Below, piece after piece: positions 2,111 to 53,305 of a DNA stretch of 64,000 nucleotides (the first letter of the stretch is position 1; each line of letters starts with the position of its first letter). The position numbers were made by a program, and so were the translations under genes. This DNA comes from Gigantopelta aegis (taxonomy: Eukaryota; Mollusca; Gastropoda; Neomphalida; Peltospiridae), in contig NC_054704.1 of the NCBI RefSeq assembly GCF_016097555.1, positions 76,557,638 to 76,621,637 on the forward strand. Direction: 5' to 3'. The notes beneath the pieces were generated by a model. The model did no database searches, was not told the origin of the DNA, and saw only the letters and a program-made list of their open reading frames with translations.

Positions 2111-3819
2111 AGAATCTGGAATGACAATGTGTCACTACGACCTGCATGGCTGTTAACTGTCCGTCGTGAGACGGATTTCCGTCGTCAGAGAAATTGTGGA
2201 AATTATTGTTTCAGTCAGGTTTTTTTTTTTTGGGTTTTTTAAAAGAGAATCACTTCGGCTGTTTTCGGTTTCCGTAATATCAACCCGATCGCTTCTGACA
2301 TTTTCTTTGCCCTACTGACCCCCTTTAGGGACCCATATCAGGGTATAAACTGCTATACATTTTGGGGCCGGTGAACGGCCCCATTCCCCTAACGTAAATT
2401 CCCAATCCAATATCAAACTTTTCCCCAATTAGACCCTTCAACCCAACAGTTTCCCAATAAAGATTCCCAAAGTTGCTCTTATCATTTACCGACCAGCGGT
2501 ATGTTACTTCTTTATTATTTACGACTGAATAATGGGGTCATTCGAGAACTACTCAACGTGCACTAAGGAGAGTAGGAATTATGGGATGTGTGACAAAATG
2601 TAATGGAGGGGGGAGGGGGTGTTATTGTGCAACGTAATGTTAATTAATAAAGTATGCAACCAGTCATTGCCGTTTTATTTTAACATATATGTATTACTAA
2701 AGACCCCAAAGTAAAATATGACATGGTCACAAAACATTACACGAGCGAGAGGAGTATTAAAACTGCAAGATTTTGCGTTACGTATTGTTAAATGGACACA
2801 AAGATCAACAGAGGACTATTCAACGTTAGCGTAATGCAGTATCAGACATTGGCTTTTACCCCAATTTTTAACAACCATAATCAATTTGCAATAAGACTAC
2901 GGCGACCCGATGTAAATGTATTTGAATATTTGATTTGCCGTCCATTAGCTGGCAGTCAAGCCTAAATTAATATCAAGTAATAATGCAAACTTTAAAAAAC
3001 ATTTCCGTAGCTAAGCCTTGTGAAAGAACACCCCAGCAAATGTCAGTCTAATAGGACTATTTTTATTAATATAGGTTCACTGCAGGACCCATCAAATTAA
3101 TGTTTTTGTCCAATATAAAAAAAATAACAGGGTTTGGGTTGGGAGAAATACATGTTTAAAGTGGACTACAATTGTCACGTAAAACACTACCATTTTGAAT
3201 GGTGATATAATAATGGCACTGACATCTGCCATCTAAACCCCCAACCAGGGCAATGCCCTGTACCTTGAAATTTCAGTCACAACATTTTACTTTTGTTAAC
3301 AGCCATGGACCTGCTTTTCATGGTTCTAGATAACTAACCTTCTGTCACAGATAAATCACATAATTTGTCTACATTCTGATCATCATAGGAAAGTCTTGTT
3401 CAGTCTGAAGAAACCAAGATGGTTTACTTTCCCAGAAATTAACATTACACTTGTCTATAAAAGGTTTGACAGTCATATCGTGTTAAATAATGAATTCTGT
3501 GTTACATTTTTCATCTTAAATAATCACTATGAAGTAAATAATACAAAAAAATGTTGGTAGGAATGAGAATTGAACTTTTAGATAAGATAAATTGTATATC
3601 ATAAAAAAACCTTACCCCGTATTCAGTTTAGGAACTTAATTTGCTCTACCATTTTGAAAAAAGAAGATAATTTGGAAATAGTATATTTGTTTCTACACAT
3701 TTGCCTGTTTGTATTTGTCGCACTCATTAGTGACGGCAACAATCAATCCTTAAGAATTAATATTATCCCACATATGTGAGTATACTTAAACCTTGCTATT
3801 TTTTTTTTTTTTTGAACAG

Positions 3820-3899: not shown

Positions 3900-6800
3900 G
3901 TGAGTAATATATGAAATAAATGTTCACTAGCCTTTACTTGTTTGTAAGCAGTTATATGAAATTGTAAACTCTGTCAGCTGTGATTGCGGGATCTAGCTCG
4001 GTCAGTAGAGCGCTCACCTGATGTGCTTGCATCGTCGGATCAAATCATCTTAGTGAACCCATTTAAAAAAAAAAAAAAATCAGAAAATTTCAGGTTGTAT
4101 TTCTTTGGTGTTCAGTTTTCCACAGACAGAACAATGTACATCATTCTTGTTCCAGTCAGTGCACCACGACTGGTATATAAAGGCCATGGTGTATGTGCTG
4201 TCCTGTGTGGGGAAGTGCATATAAAAGATCCCTTGCTGCTAATGGGAAAATGTAGCGGGTTTCCTCTAAGACTTATGTGTAAACAAATGACCAAATATTA
4301 GACATCCAGTAGCTGATAAATCAAGTGGTGTTGCTCTAATGCAGGGGTCGAATTTTACGCTGTTCAGCTATTCTGCAAATAGTAAATTTCGAAACTGAAT
4401 AGTAAAACAATTCTTCCAATATTCCGTCATAAAAGTGAAAATAAAGCACGGAATACCGAAAATCGCCTGCGACTATTCCGCTTACGTTTTTTCTTCATAG
4501 TCTGGAAGAATTTCAAGTTCAGGTGGAAATGTTGTACATACTTTTTTTGACGGTTGATATGAGTTAATTATGGCCTACGGTCATAATTTCCAGAGGGTGT
4601 GCAAAATTTCATCCGGTGGCATTTTTGCAAATCCAAGATGGCCACTATCGCTGACCGATATAATTAAAATGGCCATTACTTAGTCAATATTTGTGCTAGA
4701 GATGTAATGTTGGACTCTATACCTAGGTTTTTATGTACACGGAATCGAATGGAAAGGTTATTTATGTGATTCGACAACTGTATCACCATTAAAAATCCAA
4801 TATGGCCACCAAAATACCCTATAAAATCATTGAACTCATGCTTTGACCATTAGATGCAATATTTAATAAACTGTCGTAGTACATACCGGTATGTGAAAGC
4901 TATTCAACTTTAACTGGCAGCGGCATGAAAGAGGTTCTAGCGGAACATTTGGAAGTGTTGACAAAATACTAAATAGAAAGAAATATCCCCAAAACTTTCG
5001 CGCCCTCAGAATGCTAGTGGAGGAGCTGCTCCGTGATGTGGTACAGGAGCCAGAAGTTATTTCGTTCACTCGCCTCATCGAAGTGCTTGAAGCTCGAGCA
5101 AGTTGCAGCAGGACTACGAAGATGTGGACTGACAACCTTGTCAAGACAGTGATCATAATGATGAACTTTTCCCGTGGAGGGTCGAATCAAGGTAGATACA
5201 GCTGATCGCCTAAGCCTATGCAACACACTCGATGTCTGTATTAATCCTTTAGATGATGACTCACACCCGGATGGTGCACTGATGAACATCGTTACTGGAC
5301 AAATCGCTCACCTTGACGTGAATGCGGATGATGCCGTCAGTCTTGGACAACGGGCGATGAGCAACTTCAAGGCTGGTTGGCCAGGATCTTTCTATGATCT
5401 TCTCGGCAAACTAGTTGTCACCATGGATGTGACGAAGAAACACGTGTTAGTTGGCAAGGAATGTGTCTATGACCAGGAACTGATTTATGCACGTGTCATT
5501 GGTCTACTTGCAAGTTCACGGGAGATCAACTTTGATGATGTGTTGGCATACGAGTACGAATATCCACCATCAATGTTCAACCCAGGCGGTGAAATGAAAA
5601 TCACGAAGTCAAAATCGACCTTGAAACTGAAACTTCAAGTCGTTATATCGGAGCATAAATGCCCCATCCCGGAGACCGTTATCTATGATGTTTCTGCGCT
5701 CCTCTGGATCCTCACTTGGCCGTCTGACAAACTCTACATGTATGTGGATGCCTTTTTGTTGTTTGTTCATCAAGCTCTTCAAAAGTCAAATGTCACTCTC
5801 GTGTTTGACAGATACTTCCCCAACAGCACCAAGAACTTCATGAGGATGCAGAGAGCTGGATCAAGCCGGGTGCACAAGCTGACACCGGAGATGCCTGCTC
5901 CAGCCAAACCAGTCATTCTCACCAACACGAAGAACAAGATTCAACTGAATGCCATGCTCATAGAAGGCCTGCTCAAATCCGACTACTACACGAATGCAAC
6001 ACAGAAGCATACTCTCAAGATTGCTGGTGTCAGCGACATGCCAGTGGAGATAGTTGGTGGTGTACAGATTGACCGGCATGATCTCTGTTCCACACACGAG
6101 GAGGCTGATATCGTCATAACACATATCTCGTGTTTACTCTCAGGCAAGTGTGTTCGTGTTGTGTGCGATGACACTGACGTATTTGTGCTCCTTGTGCACT
6201 TCTACTACATTAAGTGTAGAGGTAGGAACTCTGCTCCAATGATCATGTCATCACTAGTGAAGGAACGAGCAGTTATCGACATCGGTGCCACTGCAACAGC
6301 ACACAGCAACATAGCCGATAATCTTCTGGCAATTCATGGGATCTCCGGAGCAGATACTGTAGCTTCACTGCATGGCGTAGGCAAGACAACTGTTATAAAA
6401 ATTGCCAAGAAGGGAACACTCTCCCTCTCTAAAGTTGGTGATGTGAAGGCTGATATGAAATCAGTGCAAGCTCAGGCCACGAAGTTCATAGGTGCGGCAT
6501 ATGGCAAGGTAGCAGACACGTGCACATCCATGACCGAATGCAGGATCAAGATGTGGCATTCAAAAACAGGGAAGAGTGGGGCATCATCGGTTAAACTCTG
6601 CTCCCTTCCACCAACCAATGATGCGTTCGTCGAAAACATCAACAAATGTCACCTGCAAGTCGCAACATGGAAAGCAGCACTTCTTGAATCACCACCGACA
6701 ATGGACCCAACAAGTCATGGCTGGGAACTCGACCACCAGGGCTTCCTGCTACCACGAACAGTGCCAACAGGCACAATATCTGCACCTGCAGATATACTGA

Positions 6801-7501
6801 AGCTAATTCACTGCAACTGCAAGACTTCTTGGTGTCTAATTGCAGCTTGCAGCTGCTCCAAGGTAGAAAGAAAGAAAGAAAGAAAGAAGTGTTTTATTTA
6901 ACGACACACTCAACACATTTTATTTACGGTTATATGGCGTCAGACATATGGTTAAGGACCACACAGATTTTGAGAGGAAACCCGCTGTCGCCACTACATG
7001 GGCTACTCTTCCGATAGGCAGCAAGGGATCTTTTATTTGCGCTTCCCACAGGCAGGATAGCACAAACCATGGCCTTTGTTGAACCAGTTATGGATCACTG
7101 GTCGGTGCAAGTGGTTTACACCTACCCATTGAGCCTTGCGGAGCACTCACTCAGGGTTTGGAGTCGGTATCTGGATTAAAAATCCCATGTCTCGACTGGG
7201 ATCCGAACCCAGTACCTACCAGCCTGTAGACCGATGGCCTGCCACGACGCCACCGAGGCTGGTACCTCCAAGGTAGAATGCACAGTGTTTTGTCTGTGTG
7301 AGGGTGGGGAGGCATGTAAGAACCTTCTGACATAAAACTGATCGGACAAAGAATCCGTTGAACCAGACGAGGACACTGATAAGTAATGTGCACAAATCAT
7401 GCTCAGGTTAATAGTCGTTTGCAAACATAAATGTCAATAAAGTTATTTGTTTGAACGAATGGAATTTGGATTTTAATTTTAGTTGTGTTCTTTGCAGTTA
7501 A

Positions 7502-7587
<86 letters not shown>

Positions 7588-10500
7588 TGATCCCCATATC
7601 TAGCAGGTAATTTTGGACGTTTTAGCTGCCATATTGAATTTTTAATGGTGACAGTTGTCGAATCACATAAATAACCCTTCCATTCGATTCCGTGTACCTA
7701 AAAACCTAGGTATAGAGCCCAACATTACATCTCTAGCACAAATATTGACTGAGTAATGGCCATTTTAATTATATCGGTCAACGATGGTGGCCATCTTGGA
7801 TTTGCAAAAATGCCACCGGACGAAATTTTGCATACCCTCCGGAACTTATGAGCTAAGGCCCTTATTGACTCATATCAACCATCAAAAAAACACTGTACAA
7901 CATTACCACCCTCCGGGCCATATTCTGTATATTCCTCCTGACTATCGGCTACATTTTACTGCAGAACAAATCCTCGCACTACTAAGACTAATGATCGAGA
8001 CTAATGTTTGGAGTGAGTTCGTTTGTAATTCCAGCTAGTATGCAGTAATGCATAGACTGGTATATAAACAATTGTTCGTCAAGCAATGTTGTACAGGGCG
8101 ACGTAGCACAGTCAGGAAAACTAGTGGTACATTAATAATTGAAGGGATAGTACATTTTTAAGCGGAATAGTGTTTTTTGAAATTCACTATTTCTTTGGGA
8201 TAGTGGTAAAAAAAATTAAATTTCAACCCCTGTAGTGGTGTTGTTGAACAAAACAAACTTTACTGGATTGGAAAAAATCTATTAATTATAAGTAATGTTA
8301 ACATTAAAATTATTGAAACTGTTTTGTTGCAGGTTTCTTCCACCGTGATTTAAAGCCTGAAAATCTGTTGTGTTCTGGGACCGATTTAGTAAAAATAGCT
8401 GACTTTGGCCTGGCGAGGGAGATCCGTTCTCGTCCGCCATACACCGACTACGTCTCAACACGATGGTGAGTAGCTGTGTAGTCCCCTTTAATTAAAATAC
8501 CAAGACAGAGAGTAGCACATTGAGGGGTTGCATTGAGTTTGTGATCGATCAGTAGTATTAGTATTTGAGTGGGAATAAGTCCAGGGAACCATAGCAGTTC
8601 ATTATAAGGTTAGTATGGGGTGAGCTCATTTACAAATAGGGGTGGGACGTAGCCCAGTGGTAAAGCGTTCGCTTGATGCATGGTCAGTCTAGGATCGATC
8701 CCCGTTGGTGAACTCATTGGGGTATTTGTCGTTCCAGCCAATGCTCCACAACTGGTTTAACAAAGGCCGTGGTATGTACTATCCTGTCTGTGGGATGGTG
8801 CATATAAAAGATCCCTTGCTGCTGATCGAAAAGAGTAGCCCATGAAGTGGCGACAGCGGGTTTCCTCTCTCAATATCTGTGTGGTCCTTAACCATATGTC
8901 TGACACCATATAACTGTAAATAAAATGTGTTGAGTGCATTGTTAAATAAAACATTTCCTTCATTTACTGGTGTGGACCTATTTCCAGTTATATACAGTAT
9001 CTGCAGAATATAAAAATAATTTTATTTTGCATTAAAGGCGCTGACCCTAGTTACCAGGCAGTGTAAAATATGTCTGGCTGTTACAGATTTTTTTATCATT
9101 AACGTACATGTTGCTTTCAGGTTTTTTTTTATCATCCATGTGTTTAGAATAGCTCAAAAGTAATTGTATATGTGAAACACATACTGCGCCGTGACAAAAA
9201 CTGAAGAGAGTGATTAATTGCACCTCCAACTTAGATCTTGGCAGGCCTTTTAGAATACGGTGGCCTGATGCCCGAGGCCAGTGTTTTTTAGATTCGGGCC
9301 AGTGAAAGTTACTTTGTGCAATCCCAATGGCAAGTGATAAAAAAAAAAAAAAAAAAAATCTACAAGTCACTTCTTTCGATTTGCTATCACATGCAATATT
9401 TCACTAACAAATAGTTGGCCACCAGTAATCTCTGACCCATCCATGACATCAATATACCTACTGATGTAACTTTATTAAAGTTATAAAGTGTAAACATTGG
9501 AAAAACAAAAGTTCATTGTTTTGCTGCCATTTTGTTTTTGACACTGGAATCCAAAGATTTGTTACTCTAATACTAATAATATGCAAAACGGTAACCAGTC
9601 TTTTATTAGTTTTAAAGGTTGCATGTTACTATTTACAAATACTTTAAATGTGTAAATTATTAATTTAATTTATAAAATATGACATAAATTGCAAAAAAAG
9701 TTTTTTTAAAAGCTTAGTAACACAGTATCTAGAGCTGGGCGGTTTTGAAATTTGAGGATCGGTATCGATATCGATATTTTGGAGGTGATTTACCTCGGTA
9801 AAGGTTACGGTATTCGGTATTGACACGATACCGATATCGAGCGCTATTTTTGGTATACTCGGCTTTAAACGCATACCTGTGTTAAGGCTCACCCGCTAAT
9901 TTCATCTAAATACAATTAAATTCCATACACAAGACTCTCGTCTGATTTATACCAACCCATTTTGCGTTCGTGAGATATATTATTAGTGCTTTCCGGGAAA
10001 TATTTTTCAATACCGAAATTTAGGTATTTTGAAATTTGCTCGGTACGGTAAATCGGTATTGACATAATACCGATACCGAACGGTACATACGGTATATCGC
10101 CCAGCTCTAACAGTATCATGAAATAGATAACGTTAACAAAGTACCCAAATTGAAAAATTACTACTAATATTGTGTGAGTGTGTGTGGGTGGGGGAGGTGG
10201 GAGAGAGCCTTAAACTGCAATACATGTACACTTTATTCTAATAAAGGTTCTAAATTGTTTCTTTTCTCATTTTATTTTTTGAGGGGGTGGGTGGGTGGGG
10301 AATGAGTTCCCATTCATAAGTAAATAATTAATGCTGTTAATTGTTGTAATATCTCGGTAACATGGATTATTTTTTATAACTTAGGTGGTTTTAGTGGACA
10401 CAATTCGTTTAAAATTTTAATAGGTACAGTAACTTTATTCTAAACTAATGAAAATTATTTGCATTTTTTTCTAAACAAACCATAAAGCATGCCCATTGAG

Positions 10501-27640: not shown

Positions 27641-42599
<14,959 letters not shown>

Positions 42600-53039: not shown

Positions 53040-53305
53040 GCCGCTTGACTGTCGGTCTGTGATGAATCCCCAGTGGTCTATTTTTCGTTCCAACCAGTGC
53101 ACCACGACTGGTATATTAAAGGCTGTGTTATTTGCTATCCTGTCTGTGGGATGGTGCATATAAAAAATCCCTTGCCACTAATGGAAAATGTAGCAGGTTT
53201 CCTCTCTAAGACTATATGTCAAAATTACCAAATTTTTAACATCCAATAACCGATGATTAATAAATCAATGTTCTAGTGGTGGTGTTAAACAAAACAAACT
53301 TTAAC
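53040..53305 (+). mobile_element. SINE copy
   Basis: Core words TTTTTCGTTCCAACCAGTGC, GGGATGGTGCATATAAAAAA and AATGGAAAATGTAGCAGGTT, and the tail GGTGTTAAACAAAACAAACT. The head is degraded. Confidence 0.8.

Follow-up and report, generated by a model that had tools for sequence, protein, structure and literature searches.

We analysed a 64,000-nucleotide stretch of the genome of the gastropod Gigantopelta aegis (the window; contig NC_054704.1, positions 76,557,638 to 76,621,637, assembly GCF_016097555.1), in which an open reading frame (ORF) resembling the FEN1 and XPG nucleases lies within three layers of mobile DNA. The outermost layer is a forward-strand short interspersed nuclear element (SINE), whose left part occupies positions 4144-4341 and whose remainder lies at 8233-8262. 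Inside it is an element that opens with CAGGGG at 4342 and closes with CCCCTG at 8232, split into a left part (4342-4497) and a right part (7945-8232). The innermost layer, at 4498-7944 on the forward strand, is a 3,447-bp transposon that bears the ORF and includes a later SINE. A first-pass annotation, made from the sequence alone, had taken everything from CAGGGG to CCCCTG as one transposon carrying the ORF. Our comparisons make it very probable that the locus is instead a set of nested insertions, in which an internally deleted AcademX-type transposon sits inside an unrelated CAGGGG element, itself inside a SINE.

Both ends of the CAGGGG element could be read in the window, as the first-pass annotation had described, and the 5-bp target duplication that it noted within a SINE is real, with one mismatch. 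The left copy is TAATG (4337-4341) and the right copy, which opens the SINE remainder, is TAGTG (8233-8237); the element is flanked by GCTCTAATG on the left and TAGTGGTGTTG on the right, whereas uninterrupted copies of the same SINE family elsewhere in the window (31547-31765, 34600-34793, 53087-53303, and others), which supplied the empty site, read GCTCTAGTGGTGT. The terminal repeat of the element spans only about 16 bp (14/16 matching), with short subterminal matches. When seven other genomic copies were tried for a 5-bp duplication, three were positive (exact in L045 and L048, one mismatch in L044), L046 had none, the right end of L047 was not found, and the right ends picked for L042 and L043 are doubtful. 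The ends of hAT transposons resemble CAGGG. Families of hAT with 5-bp duplications are termed hAT5 in a published account (PMC12730594), and the CAGGGG element, a probable hAT5-like miniature inverted-repeat transposable element (MITE), agrees with them in the window and in those three of seven copies; no transposase came to light for it, in an analysis with no search aimed at one.

Comparison of the outer left 159 bases with the genome gave 40 scored places (from 317 candidates), and the 39 outside the window all stopped matching at query positions 150-156, the point at which the inner element starts in the window. Seven of these 39 copies were examined, some of the places being interrupted or cut further on, and every one ran straight from the left part into the outer right part without the ORF. 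Their sequence at the junction was TTCTTCAGCTACA in six copies and TTCTTCAACTACA in L046, uninterrupted, compared to TTCTTCA / TAGTC...GACTA / TCG GCTACA in the window. The CAGGGG copies thus supply an empty site for the inner element, together with its own 3-bp target duplication, TCA at 4495-4497 and TCG at 7945-7947. This duplication and the different ends set the ORF-bearing element apart from hAT5.

These observations bear directly on the proposal that the CAGGGG element carries the FEN1-like ORF as its cargo or machinery and is mobilized by a hAT5-like transposase. In the window the ORF is indeed enclosed by CAGGGG and CCCCTG, with a 5-bp duplication around them, but it is missing at that point from all seven other copies, its own copies bear other ends, and the outer halves of the CAGGGG element match only L001 among L001-L030; we consider this explanation extremely improbable. 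Both genome comparisons by which the first-pass annotation had offered to have its proposal overturned came out against it, with ORF copies elsewhere lacking the CAGGGG arms and having boundaries of their own, TAGTC...GACTA, and with the CAGGGG arms flanking ORF-free sequence in all seven other copies examined. Because the ORF is not part of the CAGGGG-ended transposon, nothing connects it to a hAT5-like transposase. A subterminal motif, ACTATTCC, picked post hoc, was observed 5 times against 0.13 expected. It is located in the CAGGGG element, and our initial reading of the CAGGGG ends and 5-bp duplication as the ORF element's own termini was discarded.

The inverted arms of several hundred bases reported in the first-pass annotation exist (293 aligned columns, 91% identity, 4522-4814 against 7620-7910), but they belong to the inner element. 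Its left terminal inverted repeat (4498-4814, forward strand) begins TAGTCTGGAAGAATTTC, and its right one (7620-7944, reverse strand) terminates ATTCCTCCTGACTA. The 29-base left end occurs exactly only in the window, L002, and L003. Homology with these copies stops at 4498 on the left (against both) and at approximately 7944 on the right (against L002), with unrelated flanks beyond, and at these limits the copies start TAGTCtGGAgGAAT and finish ATTCCTCCtGACTA. CAGGGG copies continue without the ORF, and ORF copies have TAGTC...GACTA ends; the long arms are part of one element and the CAGGGG termini of another. Past the coding remnant and ahead of the right arm, positions 7508-7585 are a run of AT dinucleotides, which by eye is found in the same place in L002 and L009.

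Across the 1.149-Gb assembly, at least 92 stretches match the ORF, several per copy. The ORF belongs to a DNA transposon family, as the first-pass annotation suggested. Eight copies with about 40% protein identity (L005, L010, L011, L012, L015, L019-L021) have right ends reading ...AATTCTTCCAGACTA, and left ends reading TAGTCCGGGGG were readable in six of them; by eye, a TAGTC start is also present in L008, L013, and L016, and L008 ends GGCTA. A 3- or 4-bp duplication fits all 11 copies with both ends read (9 exact, 2 with one mismatch). It is 3 bp and exact in eight (L002, L005, L010, L012, L013, L015, L019, L020); the window copy has 3 bp and a single mismatch, L008 an exact 4 bp, and L016 4 bp with one mismatch. 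L002 alone, being in an AT repeat, is also compatible with 5 bp. This count leaves out L003, L014, L018, L021, L023, and L028, for which the two ends could not both be read; L028 could be matched over 6 bp, and L023 would have 3 bp only if its end were shifted. The copies traced end to end (L005, L010, L012, L015, L019, L020) measure 5,176-5,464 bp. L016 is a deleted related copy with terminal inverted repeats of about 720 bp (96%, 780-1499 against 2985-3700); the repeats in the window are much shorter. The DNA adjoining L003 (L031) has, by eye, the look of a Tc1/mariner-type transposon.

The first-pass annotation described a single intronless ORF of 575 codons, and a mechanical ORF of that length does occupy 5174-6901. 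Its GTG "start" adjoins a deletion junction (5170-5182, forward strand) with 5-6 bp of microhomology, at which about 392-397 bp were lost, a size calculated by hand from alignment coordinates against L002, L003, and L009. Upstream, a coding remnant in another frame (4939-5176, forward strand) corresponds to approximately residues 313-394 of the related protein P0082, and its frame as a whole to 313-399 (77% identity over 4939-5202); the DDE part that would precede it is missing, as is nearly all of P0082 before residue ~313. The deleted segment, P0082 residues ~400-524, contains in relatives the conserved glutamate of a D-M-x-I-E motif. Beyond the junction, the FEN1-like coding region (5177-6859, forward strand) is 74% identical to P0082 525-1088. 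The last codons of the ORF are inserted sequence from a second SINE (6869-7265), which is not at the corresponding site in L002 or L022 and is bounded by a 13-bp target duplication, CTCCAAGGTAGAA, at 6856-6868 and 7266-7278. Past this SINE, coding resumes at about P0082 residue 1088 and stops after ~1109, giving the end of a CXC-like cysteine-rich C-terminus with its stop codon (7267-7335, forward strand). With its start beside a deletion junction, its final codons in a SINE, and further remnants in another frame and beyond the SINE, the window ORF is the tail portion of a larger transposon protein and not a natural unit.

The FEN1-type motifs occur in the correct order, as first reported, and all seven FEN1 acids are retained (codons at 5687, 5807, 6101, 6107, 6170, 6176, 6353). 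Together with a PIN-like fold, these seven metal-binding positions place the ORF in the FEN1/XPG superfamily, in agreement with its original description. Pfam gave no match to the window ORF. Matches to EXO1, FEN1, and XPG nucleases showed 9-17% identity to the FEN1-like region among those listed; those proteins are repair enzymes, while here the nuclease is a domain within a transposase. The first-pass observation that no DDE motif is present holds for the window copy, where none of four DDE motif strings occurs in any of six frames, but not for the family, in which both proteins and genome copies carry a DDE domain.

Searching 5.8 billion proteins yielded 62 matches, and a second search, with P0017, yielded 105; in each case only the roughly 8,000 candidates that shared the most words were scored. 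Of 161 proteins collected, 23 passed every motif test from the first DDE aspartate through the FEN1 part, with lengths of 1,130-1,499 aa. Related elements encode a single protein of ~1,470 aa that comprises a cysteine/histidine-rich N-terminus, a DDE domain with a helical insertion, an EXO1/FEN1-like nuclease, and a cysteine-rich tail. Nine tail cysteines are conserved (in 37-38 of 40 proteins); the Pfam TCR model reached 9.3 bits against a cut-off of 23.5 in P0054 and was unmatched in the four others scanned, and P0041 carries a Tesmin/TSO1-like CXC name in one source. Pfam matched the DDE part only weakly to borderline, as DUF6589, with P0189 barely above the cut-off. The closest solved fold to this part was the Drosophila P element transposase (PDB 6p5a), at 10% identity. 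The P element has a GTP-binding insertion, duplicates 8 bp of target DNA, and is not known to carry a FEN1 domain. A PDB sequence search with alignment A1 returned nothing at E <= 1, and neither scans of viral contigs (with P0003 and with A1) nor one scan of genome contigs (A1) found relatives. One Gigantopelta aegis protein, P0159, is a chimeric receptor gene model containing transposase pieces and is probably an annotation artefact.

In the genome, each of the four close copies (L002, L003, L009, and L022/L024) retains some or all of the DDE region ahead of the FEN1 part, and in L003 a single frame includes the second aspartate together with the glutamate and the start of the FEN1 part. Among the less similar loci, 15 of 24 do likewise, retaining some or all of the DDE region within the DNA extracted, while the remaining nine (L008, L013, L016-L018, L023, L026-L028) begin no earlier than residue 737 of the relative used. 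In four end-to-end copies (L005, L015, L019, L020) the match to the relative P0083 is almost complete, though broken into pieces, and the second aspartate and every one of the seven FEN1 acids survive, with a gap in L020 where the first aspartate belongs. The other two, L010 and L012, are without residues ~582-687, including the second aspartate, and two of their FEN1 acids are unaligned. The exact HEEAD string occurs in none of the six, but each has an E and a D aligned with those of the string.

We compared this family with Academ transposons, which the first-pass annotation had aptly named as a comparison. The nuclease of AcademX elements is of the XPG type. According to one study, AcademX elements have 3- or 4-bp duplications and AcademH elements 9- or 10-bp duplications, a difference tied to the encoded nuclease versus helicase (PMC10045372). 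A mollusc survey that included five gastropods assigns Academ to the DDE/D transposase superfamily, gives a mean length of 5,565 bp for a bivalve-centred library, and describes Academ as nearly confined to bivalves (PMC10294476). The inner family resembles AcademX in its DDE/D transposase domain, in a FEN1/XPG-type nuclease encoded by the same element, and in its 3- or 4-bp duplications, and its end-to-end length is close to the Academ mean; the window copy differs in being deleted and having no DDE domain. AcademH does not fit: the duplications are of 3 or 4 bp, and Pfam scans of six proteins (1,184-1,499 aa) matched no helicase. A protein search with the DDE alignment likewise listed no precomputed helicase domain in 106 proteins, a weak result since only the 7,995 candidates sharing the most words were scored. 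The inner element has the AcademX features that we tested, in a comparison made with descriptions of Academ rather than a reference sequence and covering the DDE domain, the nuclease, the duplications, and the length.

That basis of comparison, the weak or borderline DUF6589 matches, and a nearest solved fold in the P element would also suit a separate DDE plus FEN1 superfamily that resembles AcademX but did not descend from it. The agreement in domains, duplications, and length with what is described for AcademX (PMC10045372) and for Academ in bivalves (PMC10294476) makes such a superfamily unlikely. The window element and its relatives place Academ-type elements in a gastropod genome, against the near-restriction to bivalves described in the survey. 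In our literature search, DUF6589 was unmentioned, and "Academ" and "XPG" as whole words never appeared in one paper.

The nesting implies the order of events. A SINE was struck by the short CAGGGG...CCCCTG MITE, with a 5-bp duplication; that element was then struck by the AcademX-type transposon, with TAGTC...GACTA ends and a 3-bp duplication; and a second SINE later inserted into the transposon coding region. With its DDE domain gone, the window copy is unable to move itself, and it may either have been mobilized in trans or have lost the DDE part after landing. Truncated P-element proteins act as repressors, and the survival of all seven FEN1 acids in a 1.7-kb open frame despite DDE loss could suggest that deleted copies keep the ORF since a truncated protein acts, for instance in this way. 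We think this very unlikely: in the window copy the frame changes, about 395 bp are deleted, and a SINE interrupts the C-terminus, and its close relatives are broken in differing ways.

In a complete AcademX-type protein, the DDE domain would cut and join at bound TAGTC ends with a 3- or 4-bp stagger, and the cysteine-rich tail may assist DNA binding. From its fold and intact acids, the FEN1-like domain would most plausibly trim 5' flaps or overhangs left by the staggered cuts. We raise tentatively the idea, which is doubtful at present, that AcademX proteins combine a P-element-like DDE transposase with an integral and catalytically complete flap nuclease, and that this nuclease takes part in transposition and, by trimming cut ends, sets the 3- or 4-bp duplication. 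If true, labour would be divided in a way that is unusual among cut-and-paste transposases. The FEN1-like ORFs described above are now tied to a DDE transposon whose ends are defined, which removes the false lead of a FEN1 transposon that has hAT-like ends and no DDE domain. The role of the nuclease could be tested with the help of the TAGTC ends, the short duplications of 3 or 4 bp, and the six end-to-end copies.

Directly to the right of the nest, positions 8317-8466 are an exon encoding part of a protein kinase (Pkinase in Pfam, E 4e-14; DFGLAREI...STRW), and the insertions are therefore probably intronic in a kinase gene.

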